From the NCBI GenBank assembly GCA_025330725.1, contig JAIWND010000006.1, positions 310,001-374,000 of the forward strand: 64,000 nt of DNA. The letters run 5' to 3'. Position 1 is the first letter of the stretch; each line of letters starts with the position of its first letter. This DNA is from Chlamydoabsidia padenii (taxonomy: Eukaryota > Mucoromycota > Mucoromycetes > Mucorales > Cunninghamellaceae). This document shows, in pieces, positions 9,800 to 44,388 of this stretch. The notes under the pieces were generated by a model. It saw nothing but the letters and a program-made list of their open reading frames with translations. It was not told the origin of the DNA and searched no databases. The translations under genes and the position numbers were made by a program.

Positions 9800-11657
<1,858 letters not shown>

Positions 11658-12958: not shown

Positions 12959-13262
12959 TTGATATCAAGGTAAACCAATAATTGTATAGGTAGAATGGAT
13001 TCAACAAGAAAAGAAAGACAAAGAGAAAAAAAATCCGTTGATCGTTTTGAAAAGATTCCCCACCGCATCGGGATTTGAATTCCGCTTTGATGTCAATCGA
13101 GTAAATTTAATTTTTTGTCGATTAGGGTAAACTTTAGCCCAAGTGGCTTCCTATAGGCTTTATCTCACCAATGCGAACTATGATGGTTAATGTCCTGTAT
13201 AAGATTGTTATAATTTGACAATGCATTGGTTTTGATTATCTGATTTTTTCTTTTTCACACCA

Positions 13263-22647: not shown

Positions 22648-25600
22648 CTAAAAAAGTGAGGCCATAAAGATGTAAGTTGATTTGGGTAAAAGGGGTTTCC
22701 AAAACAAGAGAGGTACCACCAAAAGAGAGACAAACAGGAATAACATTAGTATGAATAAAGGACCATACCAAAGGATGATTTGATTACGTCGTTGGCGTTG
22801 TTTTGTTGATAACACAGAAGGCCGGATTTGATGAGAAGGACGTAACCAGAATAGAATCAATGAGTGGAGTCGATCAATATAAGGAATACATGTTATTGGG
22901 AAGAGAGTGAATAAAATCAAATGACCAAGTATGAAATCTGTTGTAAAAACAGACATTTCCACAATCTTGCATACGTATTCCCGTAACGCATACCGACCAA
23001 GCTATACACACAGAGACAAAAAAAAATTAGTCTTACCCGTCTTCATTACACCTACATGGATATGTTTTTATTCACTTACTTTAGTTTCACGCCAGTTCCC
23101 AGCCCACCATGCCCTATTAGCAGCATCATCAGTTAATTCCCGAGTCAAAAACATGGCGACAAAAGTCTTGAAGATGAATCGTTGCAAGGAGAAGATAGCG
23201 AGGATACCAAGCAAAGTAGATTGTACACCGTAATGTTCCAGCCACCAAAAGTATTCCAACCCAGCAATGACAATGAGAACACCCATCGAATGAGTAACAG
23301 CAGCAGTCCAACGGCCCATACTACCACCACTACTACCACAACATGCAATGATCAGAGTGACAATGTGGACACAAGCAAGAACAATCGCATGGCAGGCAAT
23401 AGGAACCACCGCAATCAGCCCTACCCGAGCCAATGCACCACCAGGACCCATCGGTAAATGACCATGGCTCTTGTTAAACGTATACATCACCAGACACAAG
23501 ACGGCTTGCACCAGAGGCATAAATATTTCCGAGACAAAGATACTGGCCAGTCGTGCTTTTGGCGATATTGATGTGGGTAAAGCTTTTGATCGCATTGTTG
23601 ATTGTTCCTTGTCGCTTTTCCCCGATCGGTGTTTCTTCTTGGCCTTTTGCTGTTTCGTTCCAATGACCCGGGTTCTTAAGTGACGGCAATAAGTAATCCA
23701 TGCATCTTCGTGAGAATGTCGAGCATTTCCTTTTGTGAACCAAGATAAAAAGTGGCGATAGTCGACAATGAATTCCGTCCAGACAAATTGGTGAGGGTTA
23801 AAGATAAATGGCGAGAAGATCAAAGAAGACACCGTGGCCCAAAAGTAGATCAAATGAGGAATCCATACTGCCAAAGACACAAAGAGAAGCATAATCATCG
23901 TTCGAGCACCAAAATAGATGCTGGGGTTGGCAAACCGAGAATACAGCACAGAGAAGGGGAGTCTTGAAGTAGCAAATCCACGACCAGTAGCTATATACCG
24001 AGCACCACCAAAGCTGAGATTGGACAACACCGCATTAGCATACACCTGAGTGACAAACACTTCAAAGAAAAGAGACAAGGAGAGCAACTGTTTGGCCAAA
24101 CGTAGTAAACTCCGCCCGGTTCCCTTTTCCGTCAATTCTTGGAGGAATAAGGGCAAAAAGGCGATAAAAAAGACCATAAAGATAGAGAGAATGCATCGTC
24201 GTAGCCAGTCGTAAATAGGTGTTCCATGAAAGCATCCAGAATTGCTGAGAAGATCCAATGAAGAGCATTTAGGCAGAGAGATAGCCATGGCACCGACGAC
24301 AGTCATACAGAATAAGAATACCTGGACAGCAAATATCACCATAATGTTGTTCATGTGGAATCCAGGATGTGCATAATAAAAAGTGAGGAATCGATCCATA
24401 GGAAGTTGAGTCCCCAAGTAGTAATATTCCCTTGATAGTAGTTGTTCACCCATGCCCGCGCCGATCTTGGTAGTAAAGTTGAGAATAGAGCAGAAACCAA
24501 GATCCCGTCCTTTGCCACATTGTAGATATTCCGTATGCTTGATCCGTCCACCACGTGATAGTGCATTCATCCCCGCATATATATCTTCATTCAAATGTAG
24601 TCCACGTTGAGCCTTGCTTACCCCGCCCCGAGTCGTCATAAACACCGCATTCAAAAAGTCAGGGTGCCCATAATGTAGTCGACCTCCAGTCTTCGCCATG
24701 ATTCGTTGAGTCAGTGTTCCAAAGGTCTGTTCCTTGCCCGCCGCAATATCACCGAGTACGCCCACATTTTCACTAAAGATGTATTCCCTAGCACCAACAA
24801 TAGCCACCGGTGGTTGAGATCCGTCTTTTGATTCATGCGTACTTGTTGATTGCTCTGTGGTCGATGTTGTTGAAGAGGTGTTATTACCATCAAATGCATA
24901 GACATCCCTAGTCGGTGGTTGGTCCTGTTCAAATTCCCGAAAGATGCTGCGAATCTTGAGACATTCTTCCAAATAATTATCTTGATTGGCGTCCACCAAT
25001 TGTAAATATTCGCCCCTAGAAAAGATGATCGCATGATTTTGGTTGTCTGATTTGCCATCACCGAGAATAGGATTGCCAGGAAGTCGTACTCTACATCGTG
25101 GTTGTCGTCGTTTGTTGGCAAGTTTAGGACATGAGCCATCGATCAAGCAAGAATAGTATATCGGCTCCATCTGTTTTCCATGTTCACCACCATCGTCGTC
25201 GTTGCTGTTGTCCTTGATCCATGTTTCTTCAATATAGGCAATTTGAAGATGAGGGAATTCAGTCAAGAGGTATTCGCAGTTTGCATTTTCTTCATCGCTA
25301 AACTTTGCATAGCGTTGCATGGCTACCAAAAACCGGAATTTATGTTGTGCTAGTTGATCCAAATGAGCTTCTGTATCATCCAAACCGCCACTGTTAGGAT
25401 CCGAGAGTTCAGGGTGTTCGATCCGGTGTAAAATCTTGAGAGCCCTTGCATAATTCATAAAGCCAGAGACCGTGCGGTAGAGTGTTTGTGCCCGAAGTGA
25501 TGCCCATACCCGAGTCCGTAAAGTGTATTCAGGTGCTGATGATTTAAATCCGATACAATAAAAAGGTAGGTCGTCCTTGTCGGTGAATGAGCGTGCTGTC

Positions 25601-28135
25601 GGTGGCATATCCCCCGTGATAATCCTTGTTGTGTCGCCAGTAATCGTCCCTTCCTCATTGTCTTCGGCAATAAACTTGGTATCCTTGACAAAGTGTTTCC
25701 ATTCCGCAGGGTGTAGTCGTTTCAGATATTCCAATAGAGTGACGCGAGTGGTGGTATCTTCTTCACGGATGATTTCCCGGAGTGAAAGCAGTGTCTTTTC
25801 AGCATAATGTGGCGTAAATACAGTGAATGTTGGCATTTGTTGGACAGAGCAAGGAGGAGGAATATCAGTAGATAGACTTTGAGCAAAAAAGGAGAGCCGC
25901 CGTTCAGCTTCTGAATAAGCAGGAAAGCAATCTACTTTTTTAACATTGTTGTCGAGATCAAATATAGCAGGCACCGCCAAACGCCTAGTCGATAATGAGT
26001 TATGTATAGTGGTGCCATTGCTGCTATTGCCATCACCATCGTATTCATCATCCACATCACTTGTTTTGTTATATATTTTGTACATGAGCCAATGCAAGTT
26101 GTTGACAGATAAAAGATGTTCCCGATACATGGAGATTACAATAGCATTCCACATTTGACAGCAGGCCATTTTCCGTAGTGGTGAAGTCGCCAATTCCTGC
26201 GTCGAAGTGATCTTGGTGTACATATTCCCCGGCAGCCTAGCAAACATTGTCCGCCATGAAGTCATGATAGAAATCCCCATTTGCATTGCTTGAGACACCG
26301 AGAAGACCGTGTTCCAAATAACATACCAAAGATAAGTGTCGAGAAAGAAGAGCACCAATTCCACCGAAAACATGAGAATGCTTGCCACTGCATGTATTGC
26401 ACCACACATCCAGGTTCCAAGCAAAGGGTCACGCCGACAATTGTCCATCTTCATAGTCACCATAGCAGTAATCGCATCACGAAAGGACATGGCTTGGAAA
26501 AAGTAGGTTTCCAAGAATTTGCAGACAAACACGCACATCCACATGAGAATAGAGAGAGACCGATCATTACTTGGCATGGCAGGAAAGTGAGCAGTAAAAG
26601 CCTGGGTTGCAAGATGAGGTTGACTTTTGAATCGAAAAAGCCTGGATGATGGCACGATGGCAAGTGCGATGGTGATAATCGCCCCCAATCCAAGTTGACA
26701 AGAAGATACAACGAGAGCAATCCAACTATCCCTGTCAATATATAACACATAAAAGCAGGCACCCACATGACCAGCAGCAAAGAAGGCCAAGAAGCATAAA
26801 CGTGCCACCAGTATTTTCGAGATCCGAGAAGACAGTGGTAAGTAATGGAATTCCGTCAGCGTGGAAGCGATCATCAAGATAAGTGCGACCAATCCACCCA
26901 AAGCCACCACCGACATTTTCACCGGCAAAGTATACAGTTTCTGTTCAAAGAACAAGAATCCCATATTTGCAGTCATATAGTACCAAAAAATGGCAATGTG
27001 TAAGATCCAAAACCGAGAGAAATTGGTGAAGAGATGTAACCAAGACCTTGATTCATAAAACGTTTTCCGGAAAGCCAGAGACCAGTCCACGTGAGGAAGA
27101 GCAGTGTAGCGTTCCGGCAATGGAATGTTGTTGAGTAAAGTGAGACCATCAGTGAGCACCAGCTTTGCCATTGTCTGACGATCCCAAAAAAATTGATTCA
27201 TATCATCGTAGCCAATAATGTCGTTGTGATCCTTTTCCCGGCGCACGCATTGTCCGTCTACCACAATATATGACTGATCCCTGACAAATCGATAAAGTGG
27301 TGTGATAATGTCATTTAAAAACCGATGGGAGGATGTCGTTGTTGTATCGGTCATATCAAGCTGTTGTCGATTATCGTCCGCCGTCTTGAATATAAAACAC
27401 AGCAATTCAGGCATATAACGCAATGTGCTTGCTTCACCCCATATTAACAAGTAGAGGATCAGTTGAGCCATACGATCTTGATCAGACATTTCCACCATTT
27501 TTGTATGCCATTCACTTTTCGCTTGTTCCAACAATTGACTTTTAGTATGACAGGTAGTACCGGCTTGTGGTCGAGTGTCCAAATCCAATTGAGCAGCAAA
27601 ATACCAGATACGATAATTAGCATGTTCACCACCTATATAATCGGCATGGAGTGACCAGAGTGCTTGAGTAGGCGTCATTCGAGATGAGCGCGAATCCAGT
27701 AATGTTAAGAGATGGTCATAAATGTTGGTGACGTTATCATGTTGGAATCCATAGTGTTGTTCAAACTTTAGGAAGATTTGTTCGACTTCAGATAAAGACA
27801 GTGGAGATTCATGTATGTTCCAGTTGGGGTATAATAGGGTGGTGTTGGTTGAAGTAGAAGAATGTCTATTGTAGCTGGAAGTTGTTGATTTTGTAGCTAT
27901 AAATAGTTAAAGAATCAAGATAAGAGGTTAGTCTCTACAAACATATAAACCCATATTTCCTTGTTGCTTTTAACTTTCTATTCACTGACCTGTTATGATA
28001 ACAACAGCAAAGATTATTTAACGGAAAAGAAAAGAGAGCGAGAAAAGAAAAAGGAAGAAAGGAAGTTAAAATAACGATTATTTAAATCCCGCCGCCTTTG
28101 GCATAATTACCTATAATGGATGGATCATTTGCCAT
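22648..28135 (-). CDS. FKS1: 1,3-beta-glucan synthase catalytic subunit (GT48)
   Basis: The main exon 27896-23080 plus exon 23001-22648 and a proposed 25-nt first exon (28135-28111) give 1732 codons (1731 aa), typical for Fks proteins. The FKS N-terminal domain is clear (YDHLLTLLDSRSSRMTPTQA, ALWSLHADYIGG, YRIWYFAAQLDL). Hydrophobic blocks flank a large cytosolic catalytic region with GT48 hallmarks (FRFLVAMQRYAKF, VRLPGNPILGDGKSDNQNHA, YADNQDNYLEE-type, [47 protein letters not shown]). The C-terminus has the REYVCKIVEMS and FILGHLILF helices. The plasma-membrane enzyme makes wall beta-1,3-glucan from UDP-glucose under Rho1 control and is the echinocandin target. The start is uncertain: an alternative ATGG near 27951 joined by a GTTTAT donor would give MATKS, and a promoter-like AAATCCCGC at 28084 lies inside the first intron of my model. 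Confidence 0.95.
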
Positions 28136-33669: not shown

Positions 33670-35261
33670 CTAGTTTTCTTGTACCCCTTCACCAGTTGCA
33701 TCCACCACTTCGGCACCCACATCCAAGAATCCATAGTTCGAGCATACTTCCACCACAAACTCTGCATCTTCCACCTTCATTTTTTCCAGCACCTTGTTGA
33801 TAGCATCCAGGCTTCCTGTTTCCAGAGCAGTACGGAAATTTGGCGGTAAAGAGCGATACACCTCCAAAACCTTGGCACCATTCTCCGAATTGGCGAGTTC
33901 CGGGTCATCTTCTTTAGGGATTCGCACGGTCAATTCAGATCCATCAGCAAGAGGTTGCAACTGAATGGTTTCCACCGGTTGAGCATTGGCTTCTTGTTCT
34001 TGAATGATTTCCGCACACCGAGTTTCGATTCGTTGATAGGTCTTGGTCACATCGTCAGCAAACATCCGCCGAGCTTGTTCGTTGGAGCCTTGCATCCGTT
34101 GGAAGAAGATGTTGATGCCGTCCCGCCCTAGCTGTCCACAGTATTGAAGTGTCAAGGATTGGATCACACAGTTCTTGGCAAACCGCGCTTCACCACGAAG
34201 TTGTGATGTAAACGCCTCGGCAAGGATTTGATCCGCAATCTTTTCATTCACAATGTCGCTGTGTTTTTGGAGGTATTTCAGACTGGGTGCAAAGCCTTCA
34301 AGTTTGGCGAAAGCGGCGGCTTGAGGTGATAGTTCAATATCAGCACCATCATCATCGTCATCGTCTTCATCGTCAGCTTCGGTGCCGTCATTACTACTGA
34401 TTGATGGTGTTTTGGTGCTGCTGCTGGTAGGTTTAGCTGCATCGGCCAGGGACTAGTCAGAAGGAAGAGAGGAGCTCTTGCGTTAGTGACATGTTTCCTC
34501 GTCCAAGCTATATTATGTATCCTTGTATCTTACCAGATCCTTCATTTTAGTATTAGGGTTCAAAGTTTCCGTGACCTTTTCCTTTTTCTTGACAGTTTTC
34601 TTGGGACCACTGGAGGTATTCAACACCTATTATATTGCACCCCCCCCCAATAAAAAAGCATTTATTAATACCTATAACATAATCATCCTTTTTATTTCTC
34701 CTGGCCCAATAGACTTACCGTTCGGTTAGAAGTTTCATGAAACATATTTTCACTTGTCATCTTCTTGTTCGATTCCTTGGTGAGTTTATCCAGTTCAGCT
34801 TGAGCATCAGCACAGACCTTTTGAGTAGTAGCGAGAGTTTGTTCCAGGCGAGCCAATAATGATTTCTTGATAGTTTCTTCAGAAGATTGTTCCAGTCCAG
34901 TCTTGATTTGTTGTACCATGGTTTCAAAGACCTGATCCAAAGACATACCATCCTTTGCTTGTTGTTGAGCCAGTCCTTGTTCCCGCGCCTTTTGTTGTTG
35001 TTCACCAATAGCCACCAAAACATCTTGCACACCTTTAGTGGTCAGGATGGTTATGAGATGTTGGATTTGTTCTACCGTTCGTTTTTGTTGAGGGATTATT
35101 TGTTCCAGTTGATCCATCTTGGCACGTCGTTCCGCCCGTTCTTGATGTATGGCTTGTTGCTTCCACCTGATCATTGACCGCTTGTCCACGTTAGGATGCA
35201 CCTCGATATCGGAATCATCAGATAACTCTAAATTATCCCACTTGCTATAATCCAAAGGCAT
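33670..35261 (-). CDS. CDC37: Hsp90 co-chaperone Cdc37
   Basis: Exons 35261-34719, 34626-34534 and 34452-33670 give 473 codons (472 aa). The invariant Cdc37 N-terminus MPLDYSKWDNLELSDDSD is intact; the serine in ELSDDSD is the CK2 site needed for kinase-client binding. A long helical hairpin follows, then the Hsp90-binding middle domain (FAPSLKYLQKHSDIVNEKIA, AKNCVIQSLTLQYCGQLGRD, GINIFFQRMQGSNEQARRMF) and a C-terminal domain (YRSLPPNFRTALETGSLDAI). An acidic linker (DDEDDDDDDGADIEL) separates them. It recruits protein kinases to Hsp90 in the cytosol. Exact AAATCCCGC lies 105 bp upstream of the ATG. Confidence 0.97.
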
Positions 35262-35918
35262 TGAGTATGGTAGGTTTGAATATAAAATAGAATCAATGAG
35301 AAGAAAGAAAAAAGGAAAAGAAGGAGCCAGAAAAAAAAAAAGAAGGTGGTAAATTGTCTTTTTTCAAATCCCGCTACCCCTCCACCAAGTCAACTCCACA
35401 TTGCAAACTGTATAAACATCAGTATCATAAAGTTAGCCTCTTGTGAACCATGTTTTATCATCAATCAAATGAATACAGTAGACTTGTTATTTTGGAAAAA
35501 TATGATAATGGGATGTTCAAATCAAGTAAGGTGTTAACTAGCAGAGCTCATGCGGGATATGAACGACTATAATCGGGATTTGAAAAAAACCATGAACTTT
35601 CAAACACACAAAAGACCTTCTGGCTTTTGCATGATTTCTATGAATAATCCGAGATACAAAGAAGCACCACACCCTCACTTGAACAAATAGAAATAAACAT
35701 TTATTTTCTTTCAAGTAAAGTTTTTCTCCAGCTTGATAATATATCTTGAATGCAAAGCGAGGATGAGGCGGTGTTTAAAATAAGCATATACTATCTGCCC
35801 TGTCAAATCGATTATGATCATTTTTGAAAATGGGGTTGGTTTTTATCAAAGCAAGGTTTAAACAAGAGCCATATTTTTATTTTTATTTTATAAAAAAAAT
35901 CATGTATGATGACAAAGA
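35262..35918. promoter_or_regulatory. CDC37 promoter and spacer
   Basis: TTTTCAAATCCCGC at 35361-35374 is the CDC37-side promoter motif. A second partial copy (AATCGGGATTTGAAA, about 35571-35585) and TGCGGGATATGA (35551) occur further up. The rest holds no recognisable gene. Confidence 0.5.
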
Positions 35919-36281
35919 CTAGTGGTGATAATGCAAGTAGCGAGCCAGAGCGATGTCTCTAGGTAGAACTGTTTTGCGCTTATTATGATCAGCAATTACT
36001 TGACTGTCCCGAAGGAGAGCGACAGTATGACCCTCAGCGGCTTCTTGTAAAATGGCAATGGCAGCGCTTTGGAAATGGATGTCAGGATCTATTTCTCTTG
36101 CAACACCACGTAACACGGCTTGAAACTCTCGCTTATCGATCAAAAGGTCAGAGGAGTCTTGAGACTCTTTGATTTCTCGATTGGCTGTCTCTTCAATGAT
36201 ATCTCCACGAGAGAGTTTTTTAATATCCAGTTTTACAGACATGGTTGTTGTTTGCCTAGTGGATGATGTACCGGGATTCAT
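35919..36281 (-). CDS. Highly divergent histone H3-like protein
   Basis: A single exon of 121 codons (120 aa). Residues 35-116 align without gaps to the H3 histone fold: REIKESQDSSDLLIDKREFQ, AVLRGVAREIDPDIHFQSAA, IAILQEAAEGHTVALLRDSQ, VIADHNKRKTVLPRDIALAR. The register equals H3 minus 14. Conserved: R49/E50/I51, F67, F84-Q85-S86, LQEA, H113, K115-R116, P121, D123, A127-R128. Changed: K56 to D, R63 to D, K79 to D, R83 to H, C110 to I, K122 to R. The tail (MNPGTSSTRQTTTMSVKLDI) is about 15 residues shorter and lacks the K4/K9/K14/K27/K36 contexts. There is no CENP-A-type loop-1 insertion. ATG 36281 is the first in-frame ATG; the frame stays open six codons further up to an acceptor-like TTTAG, so a small upstream exon is possible. 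It is probably a nucleosomal variant, or an H3-fold transcription or DNA-repair subunit. Confidence 0.75.
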   Translation of the reverse strand: MNPGTSSTRQTTTMSVKLDIKKLSRGDIIEETANREIKESQDSSDLLIDKREFQAVLRGVAREIDPDIHFQSAAIAILQEAAEGHTVALLRDSQVIADHNKRKTVLPRDIALARYLHYHH

Positions 36282-36473
36282 GTTCAAATCAATTTGATCT
36301 ATCTAAAGGGGGAATAATAAAAAGAGAGAAAGAGAGAAGTAAAGCAAGGGATGAATCAATACAATATAAAGTCAATTTATTATGGGTCAACAACATCAAT
36401 GGCCAATCATCATTTGTCTTTATTATAATAAGGTTGAATAAGAGGAGGATGGTATCTATATTAATGATCTAAT

Positions 36474-38298
36474 CTAATATGTTTGTACGTTCGCAGCTGC
36501 TTCCTCCATAATGGCCAAATGTTGATTCACAGCATCTTCGTCGTAGACTTCAGTATGGAGATGGACGTCAATTACCCGTGGGAACGGTTTCACCTTGGAC
36601 AAAACCATCAGTTTCTTTTGGTGGTGGATATAACCTTTGATGTAACCCTATAATAATAAACCAAGTTGCTCTATGTAAATATATGTATATCTGCATGATC
36701 ACTACTCTTTTCCAACATACCTGGCTAACCAGAGATACCAATATACATTCAACATCAGCGAGATCTAAATTATTTGTATTCATCGAGTATTGCAATGCTA
36801 CCAGACAATGATCTAATGACATGGTATTCAGTGTCTTTTGTTCAATGACACACAAGTAAAGATAACTAGTGAGATTATAAAAGATGAGTCAATGGATATA
36901 TATATTTTTATCAAATTACTTACGTTTTCCTGAGTAAAGATCGCCACAGTAAGACTTTTGCTCTTTCCCGAAGTAAGACATAGGTGAAGGTCTTGTAAAA
37001 GTAGTCAAACTGATATTCGAGATGTTGCAGGAATCCATGATAATTACCAGTTTTGAGGGTCGCCACTAATGGTTCATAATACTCGAGTAGTTGATATTTG
37101 ATCAGTAGTTCAGGTCGAGGGAATTTGCCAAGTATGAGACTTGTTGGTATAAGGTATTGTAAGATAAGCCTATAAGAAGAATCATAAAAGGTCAGTTACT
37201 ATATAGAGGTATGATGATACTTTTACCTCTTGTTGTGCCATTGATGTAAAGTACACTTTTCAAAAGCAAATTGCAGATATTTTTCAGCCAATCGAAGTCG
37301 ATTTTGAGATAAGCTGTATCGTCCTAGATAGTACTGGTAGGTGACCTGTTGTGATATTGGATATTGATCGAGTTCCACACCACCTGTTCGGAGATTCGCA
37401 ATAAAGGTTTGACACATTCTGACCGTATTTAACTAGTATCATATAGATAGGGGTTAATGATCATACCCGTTTTACTTTATATACAAATAACATACCTTGA
37501 AGTATACCTTGAATGCAAGGTTAGTGACATGGAAGATACCAAGACGTTTAGATGGTTTATTCGTATCTACACCAGATCTACCCACCCAAAACAGTATCAA
37601 TACCTATCAGTCATAACCATCTTTTCTTCTTCTTCTTCTTCTTTGGCTTATTACCTACCTATCTGCAAGCATCATATTAAACATTTTCGATAACAGTCTA
37701 GCCGCATTATTCACCTTTTGAGATTTCCCTCTTAAACCCAGAGTCTTGTCCACCATTAAGGCCAAATTGACTAATTCAGAAGAGAGGTTCTTGACCAAAG
37801 GAACGAGGTAAGCACCATCCGAGCCATTAAAAAGGGGTATCAGTGCACTAAGGAAATACAAACAAGTCAGTACCTTCATTTTTCTTTTACAAATAGCAAT
37901 CGTCGTTGAGAAAGAAAAACCCCCCCTTACTTGTAAAATCCTTCATAAAGATCAAACACCAATATCAGATCGTCGCTTAGTAAATAGTGAATAAGGTGCA
38001 AGTATTTGTTGGTAAAGTTGGCTAGAGATACGGACACGTCTTCGAGTATCCGATCCACGATTTGTTCATACACAGAATCATCTTTGTGCTATTGTTTTCA
38101 ATATATCGATTAGCTTGTTTTACTTTACTTTTTTTTGGGGGGGGGGGCGTCGTGATGACTTACCGTGGATAGTTCTTGTTGCATCATGGCGAGGTTGGGT
38201 GTATTCGGGTCGAGTTTGTATAAAAGTTCAAAAGCATGAGCATTTTTTGATTTATAGGCCGTTGCAACATTGCTGATAAACTGTTGTAACAAGGACAT
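36474..38298 (-). CDS. PCID2: PCI-domain TREX-2 subunit, PCID2/Thp1-like
   Basis: A multi-exon gene from ATG 38298 (MSLLQQFISNVATAYKSKNA) to TAG 36474. Ordered segments match PCID2: IPLFNGSDGAYLVPLVKNLS, ALMVDKTLGLRGKSQKVNNA, TVRMCQTFIANLRTG, QQVTYQYYLGRYSLSQNRLR, LAEKYLQFAFEKCTLHQWHN, KRLILQYLIPTSLILGKFPR, then the winged-helix end LADVECILVSLVSQGYIKGY, IHHQKKLMVLSK and PFPRV. PCI proteins of this type work with Sac3 and Sem1 in TREX-2, tethering transcribed genes to nuclear pores for mRNA export. CSN12 is the nearest alternative, but the VTYQYYLGR and FEKC blocks favour PCID2. It is directly followed upstream by the ALY/REF gene. Exact AAATCCCGC lies 89 bp before the ATG. Confidence 0.88.
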
Positions 38299-41431: not shown

Positions 41432-42171
41432 TCGTAGATGAGCGGGATTTGAATTAACGATGGGTAAAGTGGCCCCATTAGGAACAATGGCATCGTGCCA
41501 TGCCGAGACATCGTAAATATGTGTGACATTGCTACCACTGACTTCGATTATGCTAATACAGCTCAAATTTCATATCATTGATGATAAAAAGAATATGAAC
41601 ATCAACTCGATTGTGTAGAAAATGGCTATTTGCTCGCATGATTCGACTATCGGGATTTAAAACTGAAGCAATGAAACCAGTAGTGCTATCATCCCATCAT
41701 TCAAGTACCATGATACTTTACTGCCCTTTGATTATCATGATTACTCTACCATTAAATAAAGCCGCCTCTGGCCAACTAAAGAACGAGCCGAGTATGTTGC
41801 GAATTTCGGATGCAAAAAGCGATAAAACTTCTTGCATGAATAAGATTATATCTGTCGATATAATGTTCGGCTGGTGATTAACAAAAAGTTACAAAAGAGG
41901 ATGAGCTATACTTGATGATGCATCAAATTGTGAATGTCGAAGCATTAACAGTAATGGCAAAGACATAAAGTAGTTAGTCCTCGTCCAATCAAAAGCATTT
42001 ACCTCGACAACGTGGTTGGGTCAATGCACAATCCCCACCCGCCTGCAATATTTTAAATCCCGCACATAGTCAACTAGTAAAATGAAAAGTTGGGTTTTTT
42101 ATTTGCAAAAAAAAAAGTTAAGGTAATATGTAGTTAATGTACACTATAATAAAACGGGAGAGGGGTTATAT
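41430..42171. promoter_or_regulatory. Spacer with three promoter-motif copies
   Basis: Contains GCGGGATTT at 41442-41450 (PX gene promoter), a partial CGGGATTTAAAAC near 41650 and TTTTAAATCCCGC at 42051-42063. The last two have no assigned gene; a short unannotated transcript between 41500 and 42050 is possible. An 88-codon ORF at 41611 (+) shows no motif and is not called. Confidence 0.4.
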
Positions 42172-44388
42172 CTACACCAGGTTGTAAGATCCATTTTCCA
42201 TCAACAATTGAGAAACAAAAGGCGATTCTGAGGTATGGAGTGGGCTATTCATTATCATCAAAGGTTGATAAGAGCTTGTTGTCGAAGAGAAGGATGGCTG
42301 ATATGTTGATGGTAGATAAGTCGAGTTATTACAAGTGGTTGGTTCAAATTGATGATAGGCATGATTTGGTGATGGTGGTGAATTCGTGACAGAGGATGAA
42401 GAAGGCGAGGCTACCTTGGCGAATCGCACCCCTGGTTCTTGATGATCACCATAAGTCATGGTGGTAGGATTATAATACACCTGATTATGCTTGTTGTGTG
42501 GTGTTTGATAATGTTGGTATTGGAGATAACTATCGTCTTCGGATACTGGAGGAGGGGTTGGCATAGACGACGTTGAGGTGGATGAGTAAATAGTAGCCTC
42601 CGATCCCAGTGAAGTGGTTCGAGAATGCAACGAGAGTGGAAGCATGTTGTAAGAAGAGGAAGGATCAGAGTGTTCAGTATGTCGAGCGGCTGATTCCATG
42701 GCATGCTTGGCGACGATCTTCTTGATGGCATAAGGGAGGATTTTCCACCGAAAAGCCTTGATGTCCTTTTCAATGTTTCTTGGTTTTGGATGAGGAAATC
42801 CCATGACACGTTTGAAGAGTTCGGCAGTAGCTGGTTTTGCTTTGGCCACAGTGATAGGACGGAAACCTTCGAGATTACGTCTGATCCGATTCTTCTCTTC
42901 CACCCCAAAATGTGTTCGTAGCAGGCTTTCCAGTAGGAAGATACAGTCAACCGAGGTGATAAAATAGTCGTCTTGTTCGGGCCAATAGATACAGGATACT
43001 ACGGTATGAGTCGCATCAGTTGCAACAGGGTCAGTTTGTGTGACAGGATGACAGCCGCTGATAATCTTCTTGTCTTGTGTGTTATCTTCCTTGCACCAGA
43101 ATCGAACTAGACGACGGCCTTGATGTTGTTCTACCATTGTCCAATGTTGCATCATAGCATCGAGATCATCCACCAGTTCAAAATTGCTGTGATCGACTTG
43201 GCCAGGGTAAGGATGGTAATTGGCGACATTGGTAAGAGGTGAGTGAGATATGGCTTTTAGGATGGGTTTGGTGGAATGTTGGCTAGATGATTTTCTTCGT
43301 TGTGGAGCTGATTGGAGTCGAGATCCCGTGTCTGATGATGATGATGATGAGGTTGGTGGTAATGCAGTAGATGGCAAGCCATAGGGCGATTGTTGTGGAA
43401 AGTAGTATTGTTGTATTTCGTTGGGTGATGATTCCATGATGATTGGTAATGGATTATTATGCTGTTGTCGTTGCCGTTGAAACTGATTCCGGTCATCTAA
43501 TAAATAAGCAAAAAAAAAAAAAAAAAAATGCGGGGCGGGGGGGGGAGTTAGTATACAATTATAGGGATGTCTTTTGTGTAAAGTAATTCTTACCATGTTG
43601 ATAAGAGGAGTAATGTGTATTGTTATATGACGAGAAATTGACAGGTGGGTCACATGAGTCTGGGCGGTATTGCATATCTATAAAAAAAAAAAAAAGAGAG
43701 AGAAAAGAATATTCATGTCAACTTCCATGGCATCAATGAAATGTATTTCTAGTTTACCTTGATCACAAACACGTTTGGTTGGAGAAGACGTCAAGTCATC
43801 TTCTGCAAAAGAGGACCCCCGTCTTTTTTCACCTACTTGAGATTGTTGCTGGGAGTTAGGAGTCTTTTCATAGTCCAGCTGGTATGTAAAATCGGTGACA
43901 AAAAAAGTATCTTCAACCATGTCATTTTTATCCAAGAAGCAGACGGAGATTGGGACATTGTTTGTTGTGGAGAGAGTCATTTGGAAGCTTGGTACAGTAG
44001 AAATTAATACAATAGAAGCACAGTCCGATCCATTTTGTAGTGATGATTGTATTTGTCTTGTTTCCACCACCATGCTGTTGAAGGCCAACTTGTAAGTATA
44101 GGCAAAAGGTAGATCGCTTAAGGTCAGAGTCACAGTGGTTCCTTCTTGTCCTTGGTTTGGGTGAATAGATAGTAGTTTAGGTCGCTTCTTTTCTTGGTTG
44201 GAAGTTACTTGTATTGAGTCTTGATGTGTAGATGACGACCATTTTGATGAGCCAGAAGTATCGTGATGTGATTCTGAATCGTGTTCTAAAAAGCAATAAT
44301 GAGGGATTAGTATCATGCATGGAAGTGTGTGCTTTTTCTTTTCTTTTTTTTATGACTTACGTGTACAATTGTTGTTGTTCATGAGCAT
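42172..44388 (-). CDS. Medusa (MedA)-like developmental regulator with IPT/TIG domain
   Basis: Exons run from ATG 44388 (MLMNNNNCT) to TAG 42172. The N-terminal third carries an IPT/TIG-like beta domain (KRPKLLSIHPNQGQEGTTVT, LTLSDLPFAYTYKLAFNSMV). The central conserved block matches the fungal Medusa/DUF7082 region: DLDAMMQHWTMVEQHQGRRL, VRFWCKEDN, VVSCIYWPEQDDYFITSVDC, IFLLESLLRTHFGVEEKNRI, RRNLEGFRPITVAKAKPATA, FKRVMGFPHPKPRNIEKDIK. The C-terminus is Ser/Pro/Tyr-rich and probably an activation region. MedA proteins are nuclear regulators of conidiophore development, adhesion and biofilm in ascomycetes; the role here is inferred. The first exon is short and Asn-rich, so an alternative ATG at 44382 (MNNNNCT) is equally possible. 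Confidence 0.88.

Follow-up and report, generated by a model that had tools for sequence, protein, structure and literature searches.

A strongly divergent histone H3 variant gene in the Mucorales fungus Chlamydoabsidia padenii, its sequence and its possible uses

Few eukaryotic proteins are as conserved as the core histones, and a gene encoding a strongly altered histone H3 in a stretch of 64,000 nucleotides from Chlamydoabsidia padenii (contig JAIWND010000006.1, positions 310,001 to 374,000; hereafter the window) raises the question of what such a protein still is and what it could be used for. The gene, here called H3v, is present in a single copy located apart from the histone clusters. 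We regard the chances as about even that its product is an extreme H3 variant pairing with ordinary H4 in specialised chromatin, and the evidence for this reading is weighed below with that for a non-nucleosomal protein, a decaying duplicate and a centromere histone. Newly recognised here are its near-neutral charge and two pairs of divergent H2A and H2B genes in the same genome. The coordinates of all these features are collected in Table 1.

An H3-type protein with a replaced tail and near-neutral charge

A preliminary description of the window, made from the letters alone, had taken H3v for an H3-type histone-fold protein, and both profile and structure-database searches bear this out. The Pfam Histone model scores 76.1 bits (cut-off 26.4), H3v stays below the Pfam cut-offs for the CBF/NF-Y, CENP-S, TAF9 and CENP-T models, and its sequence matches among solved structures are all H3-type chains in the 60 listed of 179 (one of these 60 is named merely 'Histone domain-containing protein'). 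The alignment with the H3 of its own genome runs gap-free from R49 with 39/83 identical residues, in the proposed register of H3 minus 14, and its local BLOSUM62 score of 187 compares with a mean of 28.7 and a maximum of 49 in 200 shuffles. All residues earlier listed as retained (F84-Q85-S86, LQEA, H113, K115-R116, P121, D123 and R128) are found in this alignment, and so are the substitutions K56D, R63D, K79D and R83H. The alignment had been said to end at I130; the register holds to that point, the residue does not, L standing there in both H3v and the own-genome H3. The tail contains none of the K4, K9, K27 and K36 contexts, again as described, and the 'TRQT' near its N-terminal start is perhaps left over from TKQT, perhaps accidental.

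The firm finding on the anatomy of H3v is its shift in charge. The protein has a net charge of -1 and an isoelectric point (pI) of 6.6, against +20 and 11.4 for the own-genome H3; its tail (residues 1-34) holds 5 lysines and arginines against 14 in H3 1-48, and at the 20 basic positions of H3 37-134 it is still basic at 8, acidic at 4 and otherwise occupied at 8. H3v shares the gap-free core and the predicted helices with the five canonical-type H3 of the genome, and differs from them in the replaced tail, the charge, the single copy and the location beyond the histone clusters. The helices are those of an AlphaFold model, which places alphaN, alpha1, alpha2 and alpha3 where H3 has them with a mean predicted local distance difference test score (pLDDT) of 66.7; canonical H3, run as a control, gave the same helices with a mean of 65.7. 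Foldseek searches with the H3v model returned nucleosome or H3-H4 complex entries (34-47% identity) among the 50 matches listed. Another divergent H3 variant, H3.V of Trypanosoma brucei (9r1d_A), is 30% identical to H3v in its structure row; it is partnered by H4.V, while the genome that holds H3v has yielded no divergent H4.

Constraint, histone inventory and the centromere question

Our searches of the genome (34.2 Mb in 95 contigs) read frames without regard to introns, so that an absence in them is not proof. The preliminary description had suggested looking for canonical H3 genes elsewhere, and five of canonical type are present: three cluster genes with identical proteins, near H4, H2A and H2B, and those on C17 and C41. 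The last two, considered as CENP-A candidates, were rejected as such on their translated exons (from about G33 on), which are canonical-type H3 split by introns. They are intron-rich, lie apart from the clusters and possibly encode a replication-independent H3. H2A.Z is represented by a similar sequence on C26 (named by eye). Three copies of H4 were found, which do not differ from one another over 86 residues; the searches showed no divergent H4, and no divergent H3 other than H3v.

Over 82 codons, H3v agrees with the canonical gene 44 times at the first codon position, 57 times at the second and 39 times at the third. When the canonical gene was randomly mutated to the same nucleotide distance in 2000 neutral runs, at most 35 residues were retained, against 39 in H3v, and 2.35% of the runs stayed free of stops. 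Such codon patterns show that the protein was under constraint in the past, along its branch as a whole, and do not speak for the present. A decaying H3 duplicate, once constrained and now drifting without function, would fit the very long branch of H3v in a phylogenetic tree (2.86, against 0.46 for yeast Cse4), the lack of any other protein matching it in database searches of limited sensitivity, and the contact surfaces discussed below, none of which is significantly better kept than the rest. We consider this explanation improbable, since the residues retained exceed those of every neutral run (a test that spans the whole branch history and not the present) and since the four divergent H2A and H2B genes are likewise open frames, each above the maximum of its own neutral runs.

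Searches of protein records (NR, UniRef, EukProt and JGI) gave 27 candidates, among which only H3v's own protein was recovered, and a profile built from H3v together with canonical H3 found nothing more than 50% identical to H3v among the 120 listed of 8000 scored candidates, these 8000 being the ones that share most words, with several exact five-residue words required. By our estimate, relatives under about 55% identity could escape such a word-based search. Mucorales proteins are contained in the searched database, and H3v is therefore restricted, very fast-evolving, or unannotated elsewhere. A search of IMG/VR for a viral relative produced 6 stretches that fit the pattern, none confirmed by tblastn, and titles and abstracts of the open-access literature revealed no paper that recognisably treats, for Mucorales, divergent H3 or H2A/H2B variants in pairs.

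CENP-A proteins as a rule carry W at H3 position 84 and a residue other than Q at position 68. Like CENP-A (yeast Cse4), H3v combines an H3 fold with a different tail; the two are identical at 37/87 aligned residues (score 151) and have L at position 104 in common. H3v could be a centromere or kinetochore histone, either a replacement of CENP-A or its eroded remnant in a lineage thought to be without it, and the leucine is a point in favour. The rest of the comparison makes this very improbable. Loop 1 has the canonical length, as had been noted before: H3v aligns gap-free with H3, whereas Cse4 needs three extra residues there. F stands at position 84 and Q at 68, where Cse4 has W and A, and H3v is nearer to H3 (40/84 identical) than to Cse4. 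By these three signatures in its sequence, H3v is H3-like and not CENP-A-like. Its near-neutral charge would also be unlike that of a centromere nucleosome that wraps DNA. Its divergence from H3 far exceeds that of Cse4. In the best tree a branch puts H3v on the side of Cse4 and Cnp1, though with a support of 37/0 and with H3v at the end of its very long branch.

According to one paper (PMC9252888), Mucor is without CENP-A and CENP-C, with CENP-T present. The preliminary description had placed H3v in such a lineage, and the genome agrees with that setting: it is one of the Mucorales, a search with yeast Cse4 returned the five canonical-type H3 and H3v with no further H3-like gene, and a search for the CENP-C cupin gave no candidate. 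Candidates for CENP-T (C16:333015-333188, 38.1 bits) and Ndc80 (C59:60944-61228, 39.6 bits), without a CENP-C cupin, agree with what reviews say of the Mucor kinetochore. The search for Scm3, like CENP-C a partner protein of CENP-A, was silent in the genome and equally in its own controls, and the CENP-T_C profile scores 14.8 bits on H3v, under its cut-off of 28.1.

Divergent H2A:H2B pairs and possible uses of the variant

Two head-to-head pairs of divergent H2A and H2B genes are found on C1 and C89, so that H3v is not the only core histone of this genome to be strongly altered. Searches against solved structures confirm the type of both H2A variants and of the C1 H2B variant; the C89 H2B variant is recognised by its likeness to the latter (39% over 89 residues). 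Both H2B variants have, in their gene models, a phase-1 intron in the tail, as against the intronless open frames of the canonical cluster H2B. In three-way alignments of the two variants (v1 and v2) with the canonical protein (127 columns for H2A, 111 for H2B), v1 and v2 agree against the canonical residue in 23/127 and 16/111 columns, v2 and the canonical protein agree against v1 in 23 and 11, and v1 and the canonical protein against v2 in 9 and 12. Duplication of a single ancestral variant pair would account for this, though the residue counts alone are weak evidence, above all for H2A. Net charges are -6 and +4 for the H2A variants (canonical +11) and +8 and +10 for the H2B variants (canonical +14). 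Each of the four keeps more residues than the best of its 1000 neutral runs (observed/maximum 34/32, 53/40, 37/29 and 34/28), the stretches compared being taken from local protein alignments, which favours identity. Among 9 frames scanned next to the two pairs, 6 have a Pfam match and none offers a lead.

As an extreme H3 variant in specialised chromatin, H3v would keep the H3 fold and most likely pair with the ordinary H4 of the genome, because only one kind of H4 was found there. Since its basic tail has been replaced and neutral or acidic residues stand at several lysine and arginine positions of the core, a particle built with it would bind DNA loosely, and the usual marks on the H3 tail would be missing. 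The near-neutral charge would itself speak against an ordinary DNA-wrapping nucleosome. Most likely its use is restricted, either to one stage (spores or zygospores, for instance) or to a small part of the genome, and the two divergent H2A:H2B pairs may take part in it. By a tentative extension, which we think doubtful, the fungus would have a complete second histone set: H3v, ordinary H4 and the two pairs would form an octamer of a different kind, gripping DNA weakly and lacking the standard marks on the H3 tail.

Several observations weigh against H3v as a chromatin histone or against its joint use with the variant pairs. Its model is modest in confidence, with residues 36-47 under 50 and the other four models at 44.7-57.0 pLDDT. 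Position lists based on nucleosome structures give identity at 19/37 H4-face, 7/12 H3-H3' and 10/23 DNA-contact positions: retention of the H4 face is not significantly above that of the remaining core (p 0.66 for identical residues; p 0.09 for the 30/37 identical or similar), the DNA-contact positions are not significantly more lost, and I112, on the H4 list beside H113, is D in H3v. Selective loss of DNA contacts and selective retention of the H4 face were thus both tested in the core and set aside, and since the shares do not differ significantly we make no claim that one surface was kept or lost. The sole tie between H3v and the H2A/H2B variants is their presence in one genome; a promoter motif common to H3v, these variants and the canonical histones was sought and none found. 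Finally, histone-fold chains of TFIID and SAGA tie with H3 in a second structural alignment of the H3v model (VIA), as does a CENP-A chain, and no TFIID/SAGA chains are among the 50 matches listed for the canonical control.

This tie, absent from the control, is the main structural hint that H3v might be a former H3 put to non-nucleosomal use, as a histone-fold subunit, H4-binding or other, of a transcription, chaperone or decoy complex that, like TAF9, has an H3-like fold outside nucleosomes and wraps no DNA. A best match to such a family had been named beforehand as the result that would tell against a nucleosomal histone: by sequence there is none, in Pfam or among the structure-chain matches listed, and structurally the tie arises in one comparison. 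The identity of H3v is 17-21% with the TFIID/SAGA chains and 30-47% in the rows inspected for H3 and its variants; the Pfam TAF9 model (TFIID-31kDa) gives it 15.9 bits at a cut-off of 29; a separate TAF9 gene is found on C11; and H113 and D123, which we take to be contact residues between the two H3 copies, are both retained. A non-nucleosomal role is on balance unlikely, though a serious alternative to H3v as a partner of H4 in specialised chromatin.

The locus, its surroundings and significance

Table 1. Position of the H3v gene, its parts and neighbours, and of the divergent H2A and H2B genes
Feature	Sequence	Coordinates	Strand	Remarks
H3v gene	window	35919..36281	(-)	120 amino acids (aa) plus stop; single exon, open frame without need for an intron
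H3v replaced N-terminal tail	window	36180..36281	(-)	residues 1-34
H3v histone-fold core	window	35934..36179	(-)	residues 35-116 against H3 49-130, gap-free, 39/82 identical
Gap from upstream gene's stop to H3v	window	36282..36473	(-)	about 190 bp; by eye no obvious intron donor
Downstream neighbour, CDC37	window	33670..35261	(-)	two exons recognised
Upstream neighbour	window	36474..38298	(-)	multi-exon; PCI-domain (PCID2/Thp1-type)-like by eye
H2B variant	C1	about 1952081-1952541	(-)	133 aa; one tail intron (gene model)
H2A variant, acidic	C1	1952761-1953225	(+)	154 aa; pI 5.1
H2B variant	C89	about 1011172-1011611	(-)	tail phase-1 intron (gene model)
H2A variant	C89	1011916-1012389	(+)

Translation of H3v may start at Met1 or Met14, and its promoter must sit in the short gap to the upstream gene. 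A Pfam scan of one 91-aa piece of that gene gave no match. Sites resembling TCGGGATTTNAA were considered as a shared histone promoter motif; they are frequent across the window and absent from the gap upstream of H3v, and therefore support nothing specific. A motif similar to TCGGGATTTGAA is over-represented in the window (14 matches with up to one mismatch, against 3.3 expected; for example at 13068-13079, 35573-35584 and 41650-41661) and recurs near several canonical histone genes; it is perhaps a general promoter element. Elsewhere in the window are a 474-aa open frame with a DUF7082 domain (42172-43596, minus strand, 198 bits), a 1536-aa open frame that by eye resembles 1,3-beta-glucan synthase (23068-27678, minus strand), and a conserved exon of UTP-glucose-1-phosphate uridylyltransferase (10635-11654). 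The identity of this exon is highest, at 94%, with two species of Cunninghamella; Radiomyces and Apophysomyces reach 93%, Phycomyces 92% and Mucor 91%, which puts the genome in the Mucorales.

An H3 of near-zero charge and without the usual tail marks, if it is in use, tests how much of H3 a chromatin protein needs. Belonging to an order reported to be without CENP-A, H3v is therefore also a natural candidate for tagging in the search for what marks these centromeres, and with the H2A:H2B variant pairs beside it, an entire nucleosome of another kind becomes conceivable.
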